Assembly: GCA_001789205.1 (NCBI GenBank)
Contig: MFYT01000083.1
Span: 1 to 31,631, forward strand
Direction of reading: 5' to 3'
Length of the DNA stretch: 31,631 nt
Source of the DNA: Candidatus Raymondbacteria bacterium RIFOXYA2_FULL_49_16
GTDB lineage: Bacteria > Fibrobacterota > OXYB2-FULL-49-7 > XYB2-FULL-49-35
The position numbers were made by a program, and so were the translations under genes. Of this stretch, positions 21,642 through 29,919 are shown in pieces. Under the pieces are notes generated by a model. It was not told the origin of the DNA, searched no databases, and saw nothing but the letters and a program-made list of their open reading frames with translations. How positions within the stretch are numbered: position 1 is the stretch's first letter; each line of letters opens with the position of its first letter.

Positions 21642-21744
21642 GCCGTCTCCCCCTAACTCATGTGCCAAAAAAATCATGGTTCTTCGATATCTCAAAGTAT
21701 CTTTTGCAGGAATAAAAAGAAAAATATTATCTTATTATGCTCAT

Positions 21745-21787
21745 TGCCTGATAGCTCAGTTGGTAGAGCGCTTGGCTGTTAACCAAG
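21745..21787 (+). pseudogene. 5' part of tRNA-Asn, cut by the integrated element
   Basis: The first 43 nucleotides of tRNA-Asn (acceptor 5' strand, D arm, anticodon arm with GTT) are intact, but the variable, T and acceptor 3' parts are missing; element DNA follows. It matches the complete tRNA at 29844 for 27 bases, then differs at two bases of the anticodon stem (TT here, CC there). The anticodon stem here is fully paired (CTTGG with CCAAG). It probably keeps the original host promoter and so may give a non-functional transcript running antisense to the integrase end. Confidence 0.9.
21774..21785 (+). repeat. Left attachment site core (attL)
   Basis: GGCTGTTAACCA is the 12-base block common to both element ends where host and element sequences switch. 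It covers the anticodon loop of tRNA-Asn, a common target of tyrosine integrases. The integrase gene ends 28 bases further in. Confidence 0.75.
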
Positions 21788-21812
21788 AGCGCCACTTACG
21801 TAACTCATTAAA

Positions 21813-22901
21813 TCAGCAGGCTTTAGCAATCTCGACCACCTTCCCGGTCTCCAAATTATCGCTACCCTTCCCCAAAACAAGCTTCTGAAGGTCGTTATTC
21901 CTGAAGGATAGGTAGCGCTGAAAACAAGACAGTGTTTTGTGTCCACTGGCCTGCATTATCAGGAAATGAGAGTGCCCGGCGTTGTGCCAGTTGGTCAGCG
22001 CCGTATGCCGGAGATCGTGAAAGTGAAGGTGTTCAAGCTTTACCCGCTTTAAGGCAGTCCACCAAGACTTTTTCAGGTCCTGTACGCGCCTGCCATCCGC
22101 ATGAGTGAACAGATACGGGCTTTCCAGGTGTTCCCCGGACAGCCGGACAAGGACTTCTTTCAATTCCGGTGCAAGTGGTACGTACCGGCTTTCATCGTTC
22201 TTTGTGTCCCTGATAAATGCCGTATTACCGAAAAAATCCAAGTCCGCCTTTTTCAGGTTCAGGATTTCACCTTTCCGACAGCCGGTATAATAGGCAAATG
22301 CAATAACCGGCTTCAGGTAGTCAGGCAATACCCGCATGAGTGCGGTAAACTGGGTTTCATCGATTGTGAAGTCCCGGACATTGTTTTCAGGCAGCTTCCG
22401 GACCATTGCGCACGGGTTTTTATATCCCCGGATGAACTCGGTCTTTATCCCGTGGTTTATGGCCGCTGAAAGCGCCTGAAGAATCCGGTTGACCGTTGCA
22501 GGCTTTGCCGCTGAAACCGTGGGTTTCCCGTCCTTTCTTTTTCGCCGGGACTTCCAAGGCGTGCCCAGCGTTGCTTTCATCCAGCGTTCTATTTCCTCTT
22601 TACGTAAGGCCGTAAGGGTATAAGACCCGAAAGCCTTGATGGATTCATTCACGCCCCAGCGGTCATTTCCAGACTTACGGTACTGCAAATGTTCAGACCA
22701 ATACCGCTCAAGGATTTCAGAAACCTTTATTTCCCCGCCCGTGGGCCTATCTGGGAAATATCGGTCCTGGGCAAGTTCGGTCTTTACCCTTGCCAATGCC
22801 TGGGCCGCAAGGGTTTTACTTTCAGAAATGTACTCCTGAACGCGCCGCCCGTTGCGATAGTAATCAATTGCCCAGCCTTGCCGTGTCTTGATTAAACCCA
22901 T
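21813..22901 (-). CDS. int: Tyrosine recombinase (integrase)
   Basis: 362 residues. The N-terminal arm-binding part (GWAIDYYRNGRRVQEY) is an AP2-like fold, followed by a SAM-like core-binding domain (about 55-170) and the catalytic domain. The active-site set is complete: Arg209 (TGCRKGE), Lys234 (DTKNDE), His295 and Arg298 (HFHDLRHT), His321 (SGHK) and Tyr330 (FQRYLS). It should catalyse integration and excision at the tRNA-Asn anticodon arm 28 bases away. It is the last gene of the leftward transcript, and no terminator is seen before the tRNA fragment. A possible 24-codon frame overlaps its start. Confidence 0.95.
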   Translation of the reverse strand: MGLIKTRQGWAIDYYRNGRRVQEYISESKTLAAQALARVKTELAQDRYFPDRPTGGEIKVSEILERYWSEHLQYRKSGNDRWGVNESIKAFGSYTLTALRKEEIERWMKATLGTPWKSRRKRKDGKPTVSAAKPATVNRILQALSAAINHGIKTEFIRGYKNPCAMVRKLPENNVRDFTIDETQFTALMRVLPDYLKPVIAFAYYTGCRKGEILNLKKADLDFFGNTAFIRDTKNDESRYVPLAPELKEVLVRLSGEHLESPYLFTHADGRRVQDLKKSWWTALKRVKLEHLHFHDLRHTALTNWHNAGHSHFLIMQASGHKTLSCFQRYLSFRNNDLQKLVLGKGSDNLETGKVVEIAKAC

Positions 22902-22966
22902 AAGACACCCCCGGCCAAGATTGCTTTTAGCTCTGTGATTTCAAAGAACGTGCTTTTCTTTTCCAT
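22892..22966 (-). CDS. Possible 24-residue leader peptide before integrase
   Basis: A 24-codon frame (MEKKSTFFEITELKAILAGG, then VLWV) starts at an ATG with AGGGG about nine bases upstream and ends ten bases inside the integrase gene. The overlap could couple integrase translation to it. There is no homology evidence, and the frame could be chance. Confidence 0.3.
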   Translation of the reverse strand: MEKKSTFFEITELKAILAGGVLWV

Positions 22967-23013
22967 TGTCAAAGCCCCTTTCCGGACCTTGTGGCAATGG
23001 AGACCTGATAATA

Positions 23014-23042
23014 AAATTAACCAAAATTGTAAAAGATTGCAA
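23014..23042 (-). promoter_or_regulatory. Putative promoter for integrase
   Basis: On the minus strand, -35 TTGCAA (23037-23042) and -10 TAATTT (23014-23019) are 17 bases apart. The predicted start lies near 23007, about 40 bases before the 24-codon frame. It would allow integrase expression apart from the replication genes. Confidence 0.4.
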
Positions 23043-23067
23043 GGCATTTTGTTTTTACCGCTTTCTA

Positions 23068-23268
23068 TTACCTTTGACGGGTTTCTATCGGGCTTGACCT
23101 TTTGCCCTCGACAAATGCGGTCAATTCAGCCGGTTTAAACAAGACCGTCCTGCCCATTTTATAAAACGGGATCAGATGTTTGAAGGTCAGGTCATAAATC
23201 CGGGACCGGGGACAGGCAAGAAAAACCGCTGCCTGGGGCACGTTTAAAAAAGCTTGAGCGTTTTCCAT
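23068..23268 (-). CDS. Excisionase-like winged HTH protein (MerR/HTH_17 type)
   Basis: 66 residues from the ATG at 23268 (AAGGAAG upstream), chosen over a longer frame that overlaps the Cys-rich gene. The core LNVPQAAVFLACPRSRIYDL, then IPFYKMGRTVLFKPAEL, is the classical HTH_17 excisionase/AlpA-like fold with a K-x-G-R-x-x-x-F wing. Such proteins bind DNA at attachment sites or promoters, and in satellites the AlpA-type protein can control excision. Its place before the integrase gene supports an excisionase role. It is about 100 bases upstream of the predicted integrase promoter. Confidence 0.75.
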   Translation of the reverse strand: MENAQAFLNVPQAAVFLACPRSRIYDLTFKHLIPFYKMGRTVLFKPAELTAFVEGKRSSPIETRQR

Positions 23269-23345
23269 ATCGACTTCCTTTTTTTGAATGATCGGCGCTT
23301 TTTCAACCTCTGCGAAACCCGAAATATCCGGACTGAAGAAATCGT

Positions 23346-23528
23346 TCACGTCTCCCCCTGGTTGTCTGGTAAAGTTCCCAGGCGGTATTGGAACAAGGGG
23401 CAAGCCTCAGACCCGCATCCGGGAACAAGGCTTCTTTCGCCGCCCATGCAGAAAATGCAGAATTGCTGAATTGCCTTTAATGGCGTTGATAGATCACGGT
23501 CTTTCATTGGATACCCCGTGTATTTCAT
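23346..23528 (-). CDS. Small zinc-ribbon-like phage protein, four cysteines
   Basis: 60 residues from the ATG at 23528, which has AAGGAA seven bases upstream. The pattern PLKAIQQFCIFCMGGERSLV, then CGSEACPLFQYRLG, with Cys24, Cys27, Cys38 and Cys43, matches a family of small proteins common in phages and mobile elements that begin with a similar SPLRAIR-x-x-C-x-x-C motif. The four cysteines probably bind zinc. The role is unknown, perhaps nucleic-acid binding. It overlaps the end of the upstream coiled-coil gene by 35 bases. Confidence 0.7.
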   Translation of the reverse strand: MKYTGYPMKDRDLSTPLKAIQQFCIFCMGGERSLVPGCGSEACPLFQYRLGTLPDNQGET

Positions 23529-23646
23529 TGTAAAGTTCCTTGATCCGCCTTTCGAGAAGTTCTTTTCGCTTCACTTGACCTTCAAGAAGCTTTTCAATGG
23601 TTGTCAGTTTGTCAGAAAGGTAGGCAATTTCTTCTTTGGGTGTCAT
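23494..23646 (-). CDS. Short coiled-coil protein (50 residues)
   Basis: A 50-residue frame starting MTPKEEIAYLSDKLTTIEKL, with AAAGGA six bases upstream of the ATG. It is almost wholly a charged amphipathic helix with Leu at heptad-like spacing (YLSDKLTTIEKLLEG, KELLERRIKEL), suggesting a coiled coil. It lies 15 bases after the helicase gene and overlaps the start of the next gene, so it belongs to the same transcript. The function is unknown; helicase-associated or regulatory roles are possible but not shown. Confidence 0.5.
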   Translation of the reverse strand: MTPKEEIAYLSDKLTTIEKLLEGQVKRKELLERRIKELYNEIHGVSNERP

Positions 23647-23661
23647 GGTTTTTCCTTTGGT

Positions 23662-24942
23662 TTATAGATTTTCGCTCTGGAAATCAAGTGTCTGTAATCG
23701 CGCACGAATAGGCAACCAGTTAGAACAAGCGCCCTGCCTTTGGGTAATATGAATTTTTAAAGTCTGTTCCCCTGCAATGTTCCCCGGTCCATCTGTCCGC
23801 GTCCGGGTTTCATTCACAAGAATAAAAATAACGTCTGCAAATTGTGCTATCTGTCCGCTGCCTTCAATCATGCCGATATGCGGACTTTCAACCTGTTCAG
23901 CGGTCTTGTTCAACTGGACAACCAACAGGATAGCAATATTCAATTCACGGGCAAGCGCCGAAAGCCGGGAACATATTTTCCCGCGCTCTGCATTCTCGAA
24001 TTTTGTATCAACAATTATTTTTGTCAGGAAATCTATTGCAATGGCCTTGACCTTGAACAAGGAAACATGAAATCTGATAACCGCTTCCAGACCGTCCGGA
24101 GTAAGGCAGGCCGGAGCGGTCAACCGCAAATAATCCAAGACGGTTTTTAATGCCGTTGCATTGTCAGATAGTCTCGCCTTGTCCGCGTCTGTCAGTGTCC
24201 GGTTTTCCAGCCGCCCGGAATTGATAGCGCACATTTTCGCGTTCAACAGGTCAACAATTTCGCCGGGTGTCATTTCCAGCGTTATCATTGAACAGCGCCC
24301 GCCCTGGGCCGCAATGCCGTACATGGCCGCAACCGCAAGCCGTGTCTTGCCGGTCTTTTTTGTTGCGCCTAAAACATACAACCGCCCAGGGACCAGGCCG
24401 CCTGTCCAGGTGTCTAAAAAGTCCAGGCCCGTTGAAAACCCGGCGCGCTCCCCGGAATTGTACCGCGTCAAAGCGGATGCAACGAGGCATTCAGCGTCTG
24501 GCTCTTCGTCTTTGCCAGCGCCGGTCTGCAACACGCCTGCAACGAGAGACCGGGCCACATCCAGGGCCGGTTCATTTTCAAGGCGCTGGGCCGCTATATC
24601 GAGGCGCTGGGCCAGTTCCCGCTTAGCATGCAGGCCAGCAAGCCGGGCAATCAGAGGCGCTGGGTCAGCAAATGAGGTTTCAGAGTCGTCAAGGAAATAC
24701 AAAGGCAAATCTTTGCCCTGGTCTTTGAGTTTTGCTGAAATCTCTGGCAGGCCAAAGGGCTTCCCGGCCAGGAACAGGTCAGCCGCAACCTCAAAGACCG
24801 GCCGGGAATCAAGACAACTGAACATCTCAGGCGTTAAGGCCCGGAAGATCGCCTTATGCTGGGCAGGGGTGCCGCCAATGCAAAGCCAGACAATCTGCCT
24901 TTCCAGAACCTCATCGGCAAATACGGCATTATGGTCAGTCAT
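23662..24942 (-). CDS. DnaB-like replicative helicase
   Basis: 426 residues. An N-terminal helical part (about 1-150) resembles the DnaB N-terminal domain, with VLERQIVWLCIGG at its start. The RecA-like C-terminal domain begins at about 165 (GFSTGLDFLDTWTGGLVPG) and has Walker A GATKKTGKT (192-200), a Walker B-like strand KAIAIDFL (about 299-306), VVQLNK (341-346, DnaB motif 3/4) and GSGQIAQFAD (361-370). It should unwind DNA at the fork when the element replicates. No primase domain is present, so host primase would be needed. Its start overlaps the initiator gene by eight bases. Confidence 0.88.
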   Translation of the reverse strand: MTDHNAVFADEVLERQIVWLCIGGTPAQHKAIFRALTPEMFSCLDSRPVFEVAADLFLAGKPFGLPEISAKLKDQGKDLPLYFLDDSETSFADPAPLIARLAGLHAKRELAQRLDIAAQRLENEPALDVARSLVAGVLQTGAGKDEEPDAECLVASALTRYNSGERAGFSTGLDFLDTWTGGLVPGRLYVLGATKKTGKTRLAVAAMYGIAAQGGRCSMITLEMTPGEIVDLLNAKMCAINSGRLENRTLTDADKARLSDNATALKTVLDYLRLTAPACLTPDGLEAVIRFHVSLFKVKAIAIDFLTKIIVDTKFENAERGKICSRLSALARELNIAILLVVQLNKTAEQVESPHIGMIEGSGQIAQFADVIFILVNETRTRTDGPGNIAGEQTLKIHITQRQGACSNWLPIRARLQTLDFQSENL

Positions 24943-25354
24943 TGGAATAATCCGGGCCTGAATTTCTTCTTTTATCTGTTAATGCTCTGTTAATTAATTG
25001 TTCGGGTATCCGATTGGCCCCCGGTCCCCTGTCCGATTGGCCCCCGGTAGGGTGCTGATTGGCACCGGGTGCCGATTGGCTACCGGTATCCGATTGGCCC
25101 CCGGTCAAAACTGTGTATGTAGTCCGGCACCCGTTCCGGCGTTCAATGTCAATCAGTTTGCCTTTTTTAAGGCCCTTGATTGCCGCCCGTATCTGCCTTT
25201 TACCCATGCCGGTATCCATTGCCAGCCGGGAAATTGAAGGATAGGCGCGCCCGTCCTGATCCGCCCGTACTGCCAGGGCAAGAAATAAATGCTTTGCAGG
25301 CCGTTTCAATTTGAGATAGGCCGGACTGTCCAGCAATGAAGGTGAAATAATCAT
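24935..25354 (-). CDS. Winged-helix replication initiator with origin iterons in its gene
   Basis: 139 residues from the ATG at 25354. Residues about 15-80 are a winged HTH of HTH_36/phage replication protein type (KHLFLALAVRAD, SISRLAMDTGMGKRQIRAAI, KGLKKGKLIDIERR). Residues about 83-115 are low-complexity Gly/Gln/Ser/Pro (GGQSD, GANRI and similar) and coincide with the iteron-like repeats. The layout parallels phage lambda O: a DNA-binding initiator whose gene carries its own origin, followed directly by the helicase that it would load. A structured terminator-like RNA lies just upstream. Function as an initiator is inference from fold, order and repeats. Confidence 0.7.
   Translation of the reverse strand: MIISPSLLDSPAYLKLKRPAKHLFLALAVRADQDGRAYPSISRLAMDTGMGKRQIRAAIKGLKKGKLIDIERRNGCRTTYTVLTGGQSDTGSQSAPGANQHPTGGQSDRGPGANRIPEQLINRALTDKRRNSGPDYSND
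24961..25000. other. AT-rich unwinding region next to iterons
   Basis: A 40-base AT-rich block (TTTATCTGTT, TTAATTAATTG) sits at the 3' end of the initiator gene, directly beside the repeats, in otherwise GC-richer DNA. Iteron origins usually have such an unwinding element on one side. Confidence 0.5.
25006..25105. repeat. Five iteron-like repeats, putative replication origin
   Basis: Five direct copies of CCGATTGGCCCCCGGT (three exact, two with changes) start at 25010, 25033, 25055, 25072 and 25090. The steps are 23, 22, 17 and 18 bases, so copies fall in two reading frames of the initiator gene: three give G-x-Q-S and two give GAN-x. Conservation of the DNA regardless of frame shows that the DNA is the selected unit. 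Together with the AT-rich block this is a likely origin. Confidence 0.7.
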
Positions 25355-25365
25355 AGAGACCCCAG

Positions 25366-25441
25366 GGAAAAATAAAAAGGGCACTGGCATTGCACGTCAG
25401 GCCGGTCAAGCCTGCCCCTTGCGGGGAATACCAGCGCCCTT
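25366..25441 (-). terminator. Branched hairpin with U-tract before the initiator gene
   Basis: Read leftward, a 15-pair outer stem (25427-25441 with 25377-25391) is complete when two G-U pairs are allowed; on the other strand these would be A-C mismatches, so the RNA is from the minus strand. Inside are CCCC-GCAA-GGGG, a GNRA tetraloop hairpin, and CAGGC with GCCTG around a seven-base loop. TTTTTATTTTT follows. It could be a terminator of the 72-residue gene or an attenuator of the replication genes. Confidence 0.65.
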
Positions 25442-25487
25442 AAAATTTGTTTATCGGTTGACCTGTTCGCGTGCATATTGAAAATCC

Positions 25488-25706
25488 TTAATCTGTATTC
25501 GAAATGAATGACCGGACCTTTTCGAGGTCAGCCGCGCCCTTTACTTGCTGGGCCTTATCAATTTTTTCTAAAATGGCTTCCCGCGAAAGCCCGTATTGCC
25601 TCTGAACCAAGGCCATAACTTTGTCAGGATTGGCCGAAGCGTTCACAAGCAGGCCGATAAACTCATCGACTTCAGCTTGTTTGGTGGCCTCTATCCGCGT
25701 ATTCAA
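25488..25706 (-). CDS. Small helical protein, unknown function (72 residues)
   Basis: 72 residues from a TTG start with GAGG eight bases upstream. The protein is helical and charged (EVDEFIGLLVNASANPDKVM, REAILEKIDKAQQV), with no membrane segment or recognised motif. It lies after the capsid terminator (25780-25809) and before the branched hairpin, so it is the first gene of the replication side or a gene on its own. Its position, start signal and lack of shadow by another gene support it; the function is unknown. Confidence 0.5.
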   Translation of the reverse strand: MNTRIEATKQAEVDEFIGLLVNASANPDKVMALVQRQYGLSREAILEKIDKAQQVKGAADLEKVRSFISNTD

Positions 25707-25775
25707 TGGTTCAACCTCACTGAAAGATCAACAGGCCTGGTCTGTATTCTCGAAATCATTTTTCATCCTTTTTGG

Positions 25776-25809
25776 AAAAGGCCCGAGGTAACAAAGGAAC
25801 CCTCGGGCC
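25776..25809 (-). terminator. Terminator after the capsid gene
   Basis: A perfect nine-pair stem, GGCCCGAGG with CCTCGGGCC, around a 12-base loop lies eight bases beyond the capsid stop codon. Read leftward it is followed by TTTTCC. It should end the capsid transcript. Confidence 0.8.
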
Positions 25810-25816
25810 AGATCGT

Positions 25817-26935
25817 TTAATGCCCTGCATTTCTGTAAAGGCCTCTGTAATCACCTGCAAGCAGACCCCAGCTATGATAAATCCGCCAGGAGATGCTACC
25901 GCCAGTATTGGGTATAGAGCCTTCAAACTTAATGACAGGGCTAGGCATGCTCTCCAAGGTGACAAGCGATATCGTATCGACTTGAACGGGGTCAGCGGCC
26001 AGATACCAACCGTACGAATCGTATATGTCAAGGTGCCCGTCAACTATAACCGAGATATCGTTACGCGAATTCGCAGGCAGATTCTTGGCAACCGCGTTTT
26101 CGGCAGCGTATTTTTGCGCGCCCGAACAGATCAGATATTTAGGCAGCGCATTGACAATATCGTAGTCATCTTTGGCACCCGGCAAGGGTTGCGAGATCAT
26201 TGCAGTGCATCCAGCGGGGACGGTTGTTAAAGACGGGACTGCGCCATAGCCAAGAGCCACAAGGTTGCCGTGATCTGCATGGAATAAGGCCTTATCATCT
26301 TCGTCAAGGGTTGGTCCCGCGCCGCTGCTTGAAGTCAACAGTCGATAAACATCGTAGTTGATCGTCGTGGCAACGATCTTACCGCTCTGTAAAAATCTCT
26401 GAATAGCCGAATTGAGGCCGGAGTTATAAAACTCATGTAACGTCAATTGAACTGAACCACCTTTTAAGTCAAGCTTGCTTGATTCAACGATGCCTTCGGT
26501 TGATATATTTTGTGCGTCGTTCCCGGCCTGCAACCGGCCAAAAGAAGAGGTTTTTATTCTGTCAAATTCCCTGTAATCGCGCACAGTCATCCTTCCAACC
26601 CAATTTTGATAAGTGGTCGGAGCGTTTAAAGCCCCAAGGGATATTGACTGATTGAAAGTAGTGCCAATAATATCGTTGAGTGGTCCCGTTCTCGTCAGGG
26701 CGTTTCGGGCATAATCGCGTATCTCGGAAGGCGTGATTTTGCCCGAGATACTCGAATCTATTCCGGTATCCCGTTCCAAACAGCGGCATACAATCCCCTC
26801 GAAGGACCGGGGAAATCTGTCTGGATCGGTTCGCATGAGGTCATCTTTTCGCGCCTCGGGCATAGCCGCCGTTGAAGCGCCCAAGATGAGAAAGTCGCTT
26901 GAGATTTCAGTCTCTTTGTCGATGAATTTTGTCAT
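25817..26935 (-). CDS. HK97-fold major capsid protein
   Basis: 372 residues; the ATG has AAGGAG seven bases upstream. The C-terminal half has the pattern seen in the capsid half of prohead protease/major capsid fusion proteins and Mu gpT-like capsids: ALFHADHGNL (216-225), PKYLICSGAQKYAAENAV, DGHLDIYDSYGWYLAADP (299-316) and the end DYRGLYRNAG. The N-terminal part would hold the arm and any delta-like scaffold. It should form the icosahedral shell. Here it is a separate gene right behind the protease gene (25 bases), not a fusion. The length is normal and no lesion is visible. Confidence 0.85.
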   Translation of the reverse strand: MTKFIDKETEISSDFLILGASTAAMPEARKDDLMRTDPDRFPRSFEGIVCRCLERDTGIDSSISGKITPSEIRDYARNALTRTGPLNDIIGTTFNQSISLGALNAPTTYQNWVGRMTVRDYREFDRIKTSSFGRLQAGNDAQNISTEGIVESSKLDLKGGSVQLTLHEFYNSGLNSAIQRFLQSGKIVATTINYDVYRLLTSSSGAGPTLDEDDKALFHADHGNLVALGYGAVPSLTTVPAGCTAMISQPLPGAKDDYDIVNALPKYLICSGAQKYAAENAVAKNLPANSRNDISVIVDGHLDIYDSYGWYLAADPVQVDTISLVTLESMPSPVIKFEGSIPNTGGSISWRIYHSWGLLAGDYRGLYRNAGH

Positions 26936-26960
26936 AGTAACTCCTTTTTTTTATGAAATG

Positions 26961-27962
26961 TTATTTGTCTATTACGTCAAGTAAAACAGCGGACCAGTAC
27001 GCATGATCCGCAGCCAATCCCATATACTTTTGGCGAATTAAATCATCGCTTTGGAATGTATCGGACAAGCGCCGATATGAAACAGCTTTGGCCTGCAACC
27101 GTGTTGCTTCAGATTTAAGATTTTCGATCGCACCTGGCCCAGGATTACGCCTGAGATAAGCCAACGCTTGAAGGGCAAAAACATCCGCCGTCAAATCATA
27201 TCGAGGTGCGGTCTTTGAGCCTGTTTTACTGGAAGCATAATCAGCATTTCGCACTTTTGCAATTTTATCCGCTTGGATGGCACATAGAGACGCTTCCAAC
27301 ACAATCGCCCTAAAGACAAGCTTTGCCGGGCCGTAAATATCATTTTTGAAAGTATACTTTTCCCCGGCTGAAAGGTATCGGACTTCTTCGCACCGATAGC
27401 CGATCGAGATACCCGACAAATGCCCTTCCTTGACAAGTTGCTTGGCTTCCAGCGCCCGGGTGGTAGTCCCGAATGTCAAGAGTCCAACCAAGAGAGCGCC
27501 CTCCATCCGCATATCAGAAATTGAGCCCAAGATACAATTAACTGAGTCACGGGCATGGCTATCGAGTAAAGGTATCTGATCCCCATACGAGAAGCCCAAA
27601 AGCATTTCATCGATGAATTGGCCAGTTGAATGGTCGAATATCGGAACAGGCGAATCACTTGCCAAAACAGCTTCACAAGTGCCCGCATCCGCGTTAAAGG
27701 TGGAGACCCTCAGGCTCAGATCGCGACTTTGTAGGCCTCTGTCTTGATAAGACTGTTCTCTGGCTAAAAGCATGTTTTCCATAGACGTTTCCTTTTGTAA
27801 ACATAGGGTTACGGCTGATTTCACTTCGCTTGTCAACGTGGCAAAGCCATTGAGCTGTCGGGCCAAGGTGTTGTAATTTAAGCCTGTGAGCGCGGCCAGG
27901 CGCTTGAGACTCAAGCCGGATTGCTTGACTCGGTCATAAAGAATAGGGCCTTGGTTATCCAT
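26961..27962 (-). CDS. HK97-type prohead protease with N-terminal Xre-like HTH
   Basis: 333 residues. The protease core (about 100-240) matches the S78/U35 family: IPLLDSHARDSV with candidate catalytic His136, HLSGISIGYR with candidate Ser186, and VLEASLCAI, with Glu223, as the later conserved strand. It should cut scaffold and capsid arms during maturation. Residues 1-55 form an extra Xre/Cro-like HTH (SGLSLKRLAALTGLNYNTLA). A second start, ATG at 27782 (Met61), has an ideal AAAAGGA site formed by codons of the frame, so a 273-residue protease without HTH may be the main product. Residues 245-333 are helical and might act as scaffold. Confidence 0.85.
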   Translation of the reverse strand: MDNQGPILYDRVKQSGLSLKRLAALTGLNYNTLARQLNGFATLTSEVKSAVTLCLQKETSMENMLLAREQSYQDRGLQSRDLSLRVSTFNADAGTCEAVLASDSPVPIFDHSTGQFIDEMLLGFSYGDQIPLLDSHARDSVNCILGSISDMRMEGALLVGLLTFGTTTRALEAKQLVKEGHLSGISIGYRCEEVRYLSAGEKYTFKNDIYGPAKLVFRAIVLEASLCAIQADKIAKVRNADYASSKTGSKTAPRYDLTADVFALQALAYLRRNPGPGAIENLKSEATRLQAKAVSYRRLSDTFQSDDLIRQKYMGLAADHAYWSAVLLDVIDK

Positions 27963-28087
27963 TTTTATTATTTTCCTTTTTGCACTAAATTATTTGACTG
28001 TTCTTGCCAATAATATAACACAAAAAATCAAATCAACAAGGAACCAACGTGGAACTTTTATGTGGAGTTGGAAAAAACGGGTAGCGG

Positions 28088-28816
28088 TTATTCGTTCACT
28101 CTGCGACCAGGCTTCATTCTTGGCGGAGTAAGGTTATACCGTTTACAGGCATTCATTAAACCTTTTCTTGTGAATTTTTCAGTTGTCTCAAAATCTTCCC
28201 AGGTTTTATACTTTTTTTCTCGAAAGTTTCTCAGATAGTAATATATGTTTACAGGTGCATCACCTGGTATAAGCCCCCAAATCGCAGTAAGGGGAATGCT
28301 TTCTAAGTCTTTAAGCCCTCCAAGTCCATAGTTTATTCCGCCCGTAGGATCCCCGGGAAGGAATTGATACAATCGCACTAATTCAAGAATAGTCCCAGGC
28401 CATGGTGTTCCAAGACTATGTTTGTACCCCGGCTTATTTTTTTCCCAAAATTCAACTGTGAAAAAATCGGAAATGCCGTGTTTTTTATTCAAATGTTGTC
28501 CTATTGCTACCCATTGCAAAACACAAACAACCAGATATTTAAAACTGTTCTCAATAGACAGGTTTTGCCTGGCCTCTATATTCCACAATTCCCGGCAGAG
28601 AATTGTCTTAACCACGTCGTGAACATTCGTCTCCTTTAATAACTGAATTCTGATACGGCCACCCTTAGGCCCAATAGAAATACGTATCGAATTCCCAATC
28701 TCACCGGTCAAGTCATCAATTCCAGTGATATGAATGCGTAGGGGGGATTTTCTAAACTGGAAGCACTGGAAACGAATTATTTTATTCAGCCCTGAATGGT
28801 ACTCTTGCTCTGTCAT
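28088..28816 (-). CDS. Unknown element protein (242 residues), first in the capsid unit
   Basis: 242 residues; the ATG has an AAGGCGG site four bases upstream that is part of a repeated ten-base motif. I recognise no domain. The first 60 residues are beta-like and basic (RIHITGIDDL, GPKGGRIRIQLL); the middle has Cys/Trp-containing helices (VVKTILCRELWNIEARQNL), and the end is basic (RKGLMNACKRYN, PGRRVNE). No signal peptide or membrane helix is seen. It is the first gene after the structured leader and is followed by the protease and capsid genes, so a head-assembly, portal-like or packaging-redirection role is possible but not shown. Confidence 0.65.
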   Translation of the reverse strand: MTEQEYHSGLNKIIRFQCFQFRKSPLRIHITGIDDLTGEIGNSIRISIGPKGGRIRIQLLKETNVHDVVKTILCRELWNIEARQNLSIENSFKYLVVCVLQWVAIGQHLNKKHGISDFFTVEFWEKNKPGYKHSLGTPWPGTILELVRLYQFLPGDPTGGINYGLGGLKDLESIPLTAIWGLIPGDAPVNIYYYLRNFREKKYKTWEDFETTEKFTRKGLMNACKRYNLTPPRMKPGRRVNE

Positions 28817-28922
28817 ATATCCGCCTTTTTTACTATCCGCCTTGGTTTAAATAAAAAGGGGCGCGCCGGAAAGGCGGATAACCGAACCGGCAAAGGCCGC
28901 GAACCCGCGCCCCCTTGACATT
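28817..28922 (-). promoter_or_regulatory. Structured attenuator-like leader of the capsid unit
   Basis: From the predicted start near 28922, the RNA folds at once: AAGGGGGCGCG (28906-28916) pairs with CGCGCCCCTT (28856-28865) with one bulge, around two small hairpins (CGGC-CTTT-GCCG; CGG-TTAT-CCG). TTTTTATTT follows, as in an intrinsic terminator. TATCCGCCTT in the hairpin (28871-28880) is complementary to two downstream copies of AAGGCGGATA (28818-28827, 28834-28843), the nearer of which is the ribosome binding site. Both termination control and masking of the site are possible. Confidence 0.55.
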
Positions 28923-28928
28923 ATTTTC

Positions 28929-28957
28929 AATATACCAATTTACTCAAAAACAAACAA
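28929..28957 (-). promoter_or_regulatory. Promoter of the capsid unit
   Basis: On the minus strand, -35 TTGTTT (28952-28957) and -10 TATATT (28929-28934) are exactly 17 bases apart, in AT-rich DNA. The predicted start is about six bases before the structured leader. Confidence 0.6.
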
Positions 28958-29137
28958 TCTTTTTATCCTTTCAATGGCAATTATCCCTCATATAAACTAA
29001 ACCGCCCCTCTAATAATTTTCACAAAGCGGGGGTTTTTAATAAAAAACAACCAACCGCCCTGATTGCTTCCCGAAGGACCCGCAAGTTTATGGCTCGGGG
29101 CTATGGCCGGTTCCCCGCGCGCACGGATACTCAGATA

Positions 29138-29182
29138 TACCGGAGTATATACTTCGGTAATACCGATGTATGTGTTATACCG
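29138..29182. promoter_or_regulatory. Cluster of TACCG operator-like half-sites
   Basis: Four TACCG half-sites lie at 29138, 29155 (inverted), 29161 and 29178. The first two form a 22-base near-perfect palindrome centred on TATA, and the second and third form CGGTA-A-TACCG. The last site overlaps the end of the 111-residue gene. The group lies about 180 bases upstream of the capsid promoter; a dimeric regulator is the likely reader. Confidence 0.45.
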
Positions 29183-29513
29183 GCTCGTTGTGGCAGTCCC
29201 GGCCATAGTTGGTCAATGAACAGACAGCGCAATCGCTTTTGTCCATTTGGCAGTCATGGTATCGGACTTCACCCAGCGCAACATTGAAGCCCTTGCGATA
29301 GCCCTGGCCGCGTTGTGCCCTGGTCACGTCCTCACTGTCCGCTGCCTCGTACCATTGCAAATGCTCTGCCTCTGTTCCGAAAGCAGGCCCATGATACGCT
29401 TGCCGCAATCCGCGCTGATACCCTATCCACCATTCAGCCTTGGCCGGATCGAGTCCCTGAAAAGTTTTGGCCATGCTCATCTCTGTCTGAAACCTTTTGA
29501 AATCGATAATCAT
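29175..29513 (-). CDS. Element protein of unknown function, Cys-rich tail (111-112 residues)
   Basis: The ATG at 29513 has GGAG nine bases upstream; a start at 29546 has its site too close. Two similar segments, IGYQRGLRQAYHG and QGYRKGFNVALG, suggest an internal duplication of a G-Y-x-x-G motif found in several small phage proteins. The tail carries four cysteines (YHDCQMDKSDCAVC, then RDCHNEPV) and may bind zinc. No known function. It is the first gene at the right end of the element, next to attR, a place where accessory or early regulatory genes often lie. Confidence 0.6.
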   Translation of the reverse strand: MIIDFKRFQTEMSMAKTFQGLDPAKAEWWIGYQRGLRQAYHGPAFGTEAEHLQWYEAADSEDVTRAQRGQGYRKGFNVALGEVRYHDCQMDKSDCAVCSLTNYGRDCHNEPV

Positions 29514-29546
29514 AACTTGTTCTCCCTTTGTTTGTGTTTGTGCCAT

Positions 29547-29843
29547 ACCTCTACAATCCCCGCCATTATTGCACAGAGGCCCCAGGATTGATTATCGGGC
29601 CTCCTGCATACATTTTCCCGCCCCTGCCTGCAAAAGCCCTGCAAGGCCTCTGCGCGCTTGCTTTTTCATCCTACTTGACAAGATTCATGTGTCCTTTTGT
29701 CGGTCTCCAAAAAGTCTCCATTGCCGGTAAAGGTCCATCGAAATTAAACGAGTTACATCAAAATTAGGGTGGACACAAAAACCTGTTTTTAGAACAGAAA
29801 GCTTGATTTAATCCGCTGATTTAAATTATGTTACCTTGACAAT
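29547..29843. other. Element right end, no gene recognised
   Basis: About 300 bases between the rightmost gene and tRNA-Asn. I see only very short frames without good start signals, a small palindrome CTGTT-TTTAG-AACAG near 29796, and a likely element-supplied promoter for the tRNA (TTGATT and TATGTT, 18 bases apart, just upstream of it). Integrase arm sites could lie here but were not identified. Confidence 0.4.
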
Positions 29844-29919
29844 TGCCTGATAGCTCAGTTGGTAGAGCGCCCGGCTGTTAACCAGGATGTCGCAGGTTCG
29901 AGTCCTGCTCAGGCAGCCA
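29844..29919 (+). tRNA. tRNA-Asn(GUU), hybrid of element and host halves
   Basis: 76 nucleotides with encoded CCA. Acceptor TGCCTGA pairs fully with TCAGGCA; the D arm (GCTC/GAGC), anticodon loop CTGTTAA with GTT, variable loop and T arm (GCAGG-TTCGAGT-CCTGC) are normal, and the discriminator is G. Its 5' part is supplied by the element and its 3' part by the host. The anticodon stem (CCCGG with CCAGG) has a C29-A41 mismatch that the restored host gene would not have (T29-A41). A strong terminator follows immediately. Confidence 0.95.
29873..29884 (+). repeat. Right attachment site core (attR)
   Basis: The second copy of GGCTGTTAACCA, inside the complete tRNA-Asn. Left of it lies element-derived tRNA sequence, right of it host sequence. 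Confidence 0.75.

Follow-up and report, generated by a model that had tools for sequence, protein, structure and literature searches.

What kind of mobile element carries a phage capsid gene and a capsid protease gene but no recognisable genes for packaging DNA or making a tail? The question is raised by the window analysed here, a 31,631-nucleotide stretch of Candidatus Raymondbacteria bacterium RIFOXYA2_FULL_49_16 (contig MFYT01000083.1, assembly GCA_001789205.1), in which a compact element of about 8.1 kb sits in a tRNA-Asn gene. Our analysis points to a probable answer: the element is a phage satellite resembling the phage-inducible chromosomal islands (PICIs), which would form capsids from its own protein, alone or co-assembled with that of a helper phage, and would take portal, terminase and tail from the helper.

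The capsid module comprises the following features:

25817-26935, minus strand: major capsid protein (MCP), HK97 fold, 372 aa, with its own ribosome-binding site (RBS) AAAAGGAG (PF25209, E 3.6e-20; NF045541 positions 335-633)
26961-27782, minus strand: S78-type prohead protease, 273 aa from an internal start (NF045541 positions 1-169, E 4e-22; phrog_4523, E 7e-18; alignment A3)
27783-27962, minus strand: 60-aa helix-turn-helix (HTH)-like segment in frame with the protease, with its own RBS (from the sequence; weak HTH matches only)

The protease and the MCP (E 2.6e-38) match the N- and C-terminal parts of a single model, the prohead protease/MCP fusion NF045541, and both clearly derive from tailed phages. 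In the phage relatives examined most closely, the two are fused into one protein (703 aa in locus L103, 668 aa in prophage G131, described below), whereas here they are two genes, each with an RBS of its own, that of the MCP gene being strong. The HTH-like segment opens the protease reading frame; after it come an internal RBS and an ATG at 27782. Residues H76, S126 and E163 of the protease, invariant across the family in alignment A3, are retained, and the MCP keeps all 13 columns that are invariant among 37 MCPs, 11 of which fall in the motif used to collect the phage loci.

The ends of the element are defined by four features:

21745-21787, plus strand: attL, the host-derived 5' half of tRNA-Asn up to the crossover loop at 21776-21782, CTTGG-CTGTTAA-CCAAG (repeat D2; joined-flank tRNA test)
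29844-29919, plus strand: attR, a complete tRNA-Asn (gtt) with its 5' half from the element and the crossover loop at 29875-29881 (ARAGORN)
21926-21946, plus strand: putative integrase arm site, left (inverted repeat I2, 86%)
29769-29789, plus strand: putative integrase arm site, right (inverted repeat I2, 86%)

The junctions are marked by a 63-nt repeat with copies at 21726-21788 and 29825-29887 (84% identity), and both tRNA-Asn copies match around the anticodon loop CTGTTAA. The copy at the right end is the only tRNA that ARAGORN calls in the window. A single whole tRNA-Asn gene results when the flanks are joined within the anticodon loop, and the left fragment does not make a tRNA by itself; the element therefore measures 8,099 bp from loop to loop, with crossover points at 21776 and 29875. 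This bears out the 8.1-kb tRNA-Asn element between two junctions proposed in an earlier examination of this DNA without database searches (hereafter, the sequence-only reading). Most simply, crossover takes place in the anticodon loop and the 5' half of the tRNA comes from the element. About 100-160 bp in from either end is one copy of a 21-nt inverted repeat (86% matched, GTGGACAC core); the pair likely represents the integrase arm sites, its position being that expected of such sites. In the anticodon stem of the element-restored tRNA-Asn, C is mismatched with A (CCCGG/CCAGG); a T-G wobble takes this position in the deduced empty site. No second close copy of tRNA-Asn was seen in the host genome.

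Besides the capsid module, the element contains:

21813-22901, minus strand: tyrosine integrase, 362 aa, with readable R, HxxR, H and Y motifs (PF00589, E 1.8e-26; phrog_1, E 2.5e-56)
23068-23268, minus strand: AlpA/excisionase-like HTH_17 protein, 66 aa (HTH_17, E 4.1e-7; phrog_66 excisionase and regulator, E 0.004)
23346-23528, minus strand: 60-aa Cys-rich (CxxCMGG...CxxxxCPL) putative zinc finger (open reading frame (ORF); no significant family)
23662-24942, minus strand: DnaB-like replicative helicase, 426 aa, Walker A GATKKTGKT (PF03796 (DnaB_C), E 3.2e-29; TIGR03600, E 1.1e-39)
24935-25390, minus strand: O-like replication initiator, 151 aa (HTH_36, E 5e-10; phrog_1032, E 2.6e-13; O-like phrog_678, E 1.7e-8)
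25005-25110, no strand: five iterons (ATCCGATTGGCCCCCGG type) within the initiator gene (repeat D1)
25488-25706, minus strand: 72-aa protein (ORF; no significant family match)
28088-28816, minus strand: 242-aa protein, a candidate for a size or packaging factor (none of the searches gave a significant match)
29175-29546, minus strand: 123-aa protein (no match in family searches or PADLOC)

All ORFs assigned to the element (21.8-29.6 kb) lie on the minus strand, intact and co-directional as the sequence-only reading had stated, and no pseudogenes or gene fragments were found among them. As transcribed, from right to left, the order is the 123-aa and 242-aa proteins of no known family, the HTH-like segment with the protease, the MCP, the 72-aa protein, the initiator, the helicase, the 60-aa Cys4 protein, the AlpA-like protein and the integrase. 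Profile matches recovered every gene that the sequence-only reading had named, from the integrase and excisionase-like HTH to the initiator with iterons, the DnaB-like helicase, the protease and the MCP. We are thus dealing with an integrated mobile element that has its own integration and excision module and defined attachment sites.

The iteron CCGATTGGC occurs in four copies within 25010-25098, with the fifth copy degenerate; 0.24 occurrences would be expected in the whole window. This array inside the initiator gene is the probable origin, and the O genes of lambdoid phages likewise carry iterons within the gene. No primase was found in the element. The AlpA-like gene starts at 23268 and is preceded by AAAAGGA, and a longer ORF is possible from 23403; its start context, AAAAGGAA...ATGGAAAAC, is shared with the internal start of the protease. 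The 60-aa Cys-rich protein (CIFCMGG...CGSEACPLFQYRLG) resembles small prophage zinc-finger proteins.

Searches with Pfam, PHROGs and NCBIfam recognised no terminase, portal, connector, tail or lysis gene in the element. The genes for autonomous virion production are wanting, and the head-packaging operon of a tailed prophage, in which terminase, portal and tail genes accompany the MCP gene, is likewise not present. The absence of terminase, portal, tail and lysis genes noted from the sequence alone therefore holds for everything recognisable, though a divergent small terminase, a size factor or a packaging-redirecting factor could be concealed in the 242-aa and 123-aa proteins. When the database searches proposed in the sequence-only reading were made, the MCP and protease fell into phage head families, and the 242-aa protein had no homologue in phages, the phylum, Pfam, PHROGs, NCBIfam or PADLOC; its single-sequence fold was unusable (predicted local distance difference test score (pLDDT) 36). 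This unique and unexplained protein might be an unfamiliar packaging ATPase, making the element a minimal virus that needs no helper. We regard this as improbable in the extreme: no Walker motif is visible in the protein, the portal, tail and lysis genes would still be missing, and known HK97-fold viruses need both terminase and portal.

Where would a helper come from? The host genome, a draft of 5.43 Mb in 112 contigs with a completeness of 100, gave no matches to four terminase profiles (GpA ATPase, PF05876; GpA nuclease, PF20454; Terminase_6N, PF03237; TerL_ATPase, PF03354) or two portal profiles (Phage_portal_2, PF05136; Phage_portal, PF04860), with positive controls, and its single MCP is that of the element. 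A helper prophage in the same genome, which the sequence-only reading had suggested looking for, is thus not found in any recognisable form by these six families, and any helper therefore probably comes from outside. This does not exclude a satellite, because the 17 prophages native to the strain carrying the satellite EcCIEDL933 also failed to mobilise it (PMC11389934).

The lack of packaging genes and of a resident helper would also suit a capsid domesticated by the host as a nanocompartment, an anti-phage sensor or a decoy, with mobility incidental. Indeed, the predicted structure of the MCP (pLDDT 77.7) matches HK97-fold shells of both encapsulins and phage capsids (best E 7e-9), with encapsulins ranking first, and these matches prompted us to consider an encapsulin-like nanocompartment, an idea that sequence family and gene context led us to reject. 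The resemblance to encapsulins is confined to the fold, and by sequence the proteins belong with phage head and protease models; a prohead protease, a replication module, iterons and an integration module argue for mobility, and PADLOC had no match for the proteins of no known family. We therefore judge domestication very unlikely.

The satellite reading draws further support from relatives within the phylum. An MCP search across 167 genomes found a related protein in three of them only, here called G058, G022 and G131. The prophage of G131 is complete, having genes for tails, a terminase, a lambda-type portal and a fused protease-MCP, and no other complete related one was found in the phylum; it is distant from the window element (about 25% MCP identity) and differs in gene order. 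G058 and G022 are two species of one genus, in a family other than that of the window's host. In G058, one contig (L008) has an intact tRNA-Asn; between it and the contig end lie the MCP gene and the genes of a sigma factor and a coiled-coil protein. A second (L156) carries a copy of the 3' half of the same tRNA-Asn and its flank, 83% identical over 164 nt and nearly identical through the tRNA part, followed on one strand by genes for an integrase, a DnaB-like helicase, a primase-like protein, an initiator and a regulator. A 6.5-kb contig of G022 spans from the MCP end (97.5% nucleotide identity to G058) to a replication-side gene (91.5%); between them lie small genes and one for a sigma factor, and neither a terminase nor a portal is recognisable there. 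Since this contig bridges both G058 sides, the parts belong to one element type, and we infer that the three contigs from the two species represent one continuous arrangement. GpA terminase is absent from both genomes. In the overlap between the G058 and G022 MCPs (60 codons), nine synonymous and four non-synonymous changes give a ratio of non-synonymous to synonymous rates (dN/dS) of about 0.11, which, in this small sample, points to constraint.

A phage-type sigma-70 factor (phrog_351) is encoded near the MCP in both G058 (L008 3362-4027) and G022 (L018 454-1113); it is possibly a late-gene activator and has no counterpart in the window element. A 22-nt tRNA-Asn match at the end of G022 contig C110 lies in a host flank of unclear synteny and was not used as evidence.

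The layout common to the window element and that of G058 and G022 consists of a tRNA-Asn, a capsid gene, replication genes and, last, an integrase gene beside the truncated tRNA copy, all on one strand. Looking for the same gene order at tRNA sites in related genomes had been proposed in the sequence-only reading, and the similar layout bears directly on whether the window element is a decayed prophage, a temperate phage that lost its packaging, tail and lysis genes and kept two capsid genes by chance. The tailed-phage origin of the MCP and protease and the complete related prophage in G131 would fit such a history. The gene order, however, is not that of a phage with genes missing: the protease and MCP are fused in the phage relatives examined and split here, each gene having its own RBS. 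No pseudogenes or fragments remain, and both ends and arm sites are intact. A similar terminase- and portal-free layout recurs at tRNA-Asn in two species of another family, with signs of constraint on the MCP. Because of the split genes and the recurring layout, we consider chance decay unlikely, in line with the weakening of this view in the sequence-only reading, and keep it in consideration because no close relative of the exact window element was found. Nor does a larger parent prophage without compact relatives emerge from our searches, as G058 and G022 exist and the G131 prophage is distant and has the fused protein.

Several observations weigh against a satellite. Searches of viral contigs, phages and genome contigs revealed no close relative of the element. 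IMG/VR yielded no useful close relatives of the MCP, protease, helicase or integrase, a search for the MCP in GTDB genome contigs gave none, and a nucleotide search of the whole element against phages found nothing. A first alignment was too divergent for a pattern search; scans with a degenerate MCP motif gave two matches in GTDB genome contigs and at least 120 loci in IMG/VR; among the latter, no compact, integrase-bearing, terminase-free satellite was recognised and most, where the flanks allowed, had portal and/or terminase. Furthermore, the window and G058 elements share only the MCP and the integrase, at 24-26% identity; they replicate with different genes, and a protease is not recognisable in G058. 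In favour of a satellite, the two MCPs pair in the tree (97/88), both on long branches, and when either is left out, the other attaches beside the same four phages, G131 included (71/85 and 88/80). The pairing may still be partly long-branch attraction, and the long branches could also reflect loss of constraint or a non-capsid role. The Charybdis elements were considered as a match and set aside; their content differs.

The sequence itself shows the integration, the intact replication and capsid modules, the conserved active sites, the iterons and the missing motor. From these we infer the following life cycle for the element as a satellite, including its induction, particle formation, use of a helper and capsid size. 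Upon infection by a helper phage, the AlpA-like protein and the integrase would excise the element from tRNA-Asn, and the O-like initiator would open the iterons in its own gene and load the DnaB-like helicase, so that the circle replicates; both steps are predicted from the protein families. The MCP and protease would be made in quantity and form a shell, probably a small one, either alone or mixed with helper capsid protein, and the helper would provide portal, terminase, connector, tail and lysis functions. The resulting particle would inject its DNA into a new cell, where integration into tRNA-Asn would restore the tRNA with the element's 5' half.

We consider a full shell of its own and a mixed shell roughly equally plausible. 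A mixed shell has a precedent in the staphylococcal satellite SaPIbov5, whose Ccm, a capsid-fold protein resembling the helper MCP, is built into small capsids for which the helper capsid protein is still required (PMC6893505). The MCP and protease of the window element might accordingly poison or resize helper capsids, the shells then being partly or mostly helper protein. The absence of a portal gene and the very long branch of the MCP would fit this, but a pure poison or resizing factor has no obvious need of a dedicated, conserved protease. We take such interference to be a real, if rather doubtful, possibility; as it is one version of the satellite explanation, our confidence in the two overlaps. 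Somewhat short of an even chance is a separate tRNA-Asn satellite lineage across families of one phylum, making a complete, protease-matured shell of its own and depending on a helper, virulent or temperate, for portal, motor and tail. If it exists, it would represent a third strategy, in an unusually small satellite genome, between satellites that resize capsids (P4, Staphylococcus aureus pathogenicity islands (SaPIs), PICI-like elements (PLEs)) and the capsid-forming PICIs (cf-PICIs), which make both capsid and motor.

How does the element compare with known systems? A cf-PICI of the EcCIEDL933 type makes its own capsid protein and protease, as the window element does, but portal, terminase and connectors are found in the cf-PICI only. 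We rejected the cf-PICI label for the window element, in which portal and terminase are wanting. The comparison with cf-PICIs drawn in the sequence-only reading was mistaken, as these islands carry the complete set of genes for forming the capsid and packaging the DNA; in other satellites, one or two redirecting proteins are typical (PMC12409344).

The source family of the protease and MCP is that of the NF045541/phrog_4523 fusion phages (e.g., Stenotrophomonas phage S1 and prophage G131), in which, unlike here, the fused protein is part of a terminase-portal-head-tail operon; identity is about 25-35%. SaPIbov5 likewise has a satellite-encoded HK97-fold capsid protein and relies on its helper for the rest of the particle, but it has a Gram-positive SaPI backbone, its Ccm turns prolate phi12 capsids isometric, and no protease is mentioned in the literature examined.

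Compact islands of about 10 kb are closer in content. Three in Escherichia coli (L140-L142, at cspD-clpS and near a tRNA) and two circular records of 10.5-10.8 kb (Klebsiella pYD-K10_2 and E. coli pZ1323HEC0475-3) have an integrase, AlpA, a primase-type gene, a protease/MCP fusion and DUF1441 (TerS-like, phrog_141), with neither TerL nor portal. They resemble the window element in having an integrase, AlpA, a replication gene, protease and MCP without TerL or portal, and differ in the ClpP-like protease fused to the MCP, DUF1441, primase-based replication and the int-first orientation. The MCP fusion of pZ1323HEC0475-3 is found over at least 80% of its length in 191 of 5,426 E. coli genomes, and all three chromosomal copies examined are compact islands without TerL or portal, two of them adjoining cspD-clpS. 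Photobacterium toruni pCECT9189-4 (L143, NZ_AP024859.1), recorded as a linear plasmid of 9.8 kb, encodes a protelomerase, a DUF927 protein and a head-maturation protease/MCP, with no annotated terminase or portal; it is possibly a telomere-phage satellite.

Among the Gram-negative PICIs, PmCI172 of Pasteurella multocida encodes an MCP homologue and forms small-headed particles with a Mu-like helper (PMC6092414), and EcCICFT073 also has a capsid homologue; the role of the capsid gene in such satellites is still undetermined (PMC6893505). Like the window element, both are chromosomal satellites with an integrase, an AlpA activator (EcCICFT073), iteron-based replication of their own and a capsid-like gene. 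They are packaged by a helper, as we propose for the window element. The latter differs in its size of 8.1 kb, belongs to another phylum, has no recognisable TerS, and has a separate protease gene and an O-like initiator with DnaB instead of pri-rep. The combination of int with an AlpA-type regulator (PF00589, HTH_17) agrees with Gram-negative PICIs. These, however, are transcribed rightward (int first in the E. coli islands examined), in the direction int, alpA, replication, and carry pri-rep with iterons 3' of the gene; the window element is unidirectional but runs from capsid to integrase, with int and alpA last (compare L141 and L142), and its iterons are intragenic. Because polarity, pri-rep and the defining feature of cf-PICIs all fail, we file the element under neither class, although it would work like a PICI-type satellite.

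Of the smaller capsid-encoding satellite type suggested by the sequence-only reading, the compact satellite remains the best interpretation, but PmCI172, EcCICFT073, SaPIbov5 and the E. coli islands show that it is not unprecedented: a capsid gene without a packaging motor is an already published satellite theme. The novelty lies in the phylum, probably Fibrobacterota, in how small the element is and in its organisation: a protease gene apart from the MCP gene, replication genes of the O/DnaB type and a gene polarity that is reversed. The published capsid-homologue satellites that we found are from Gammaproteobacteria and staphylococci, and the element would extend this lifestyle to a phylum for which we found no description in the literature. 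Its 8.1-kb version with a protease and the larger version in two species offer a natural comparison for the role of a satellite capsid without portal or motor.

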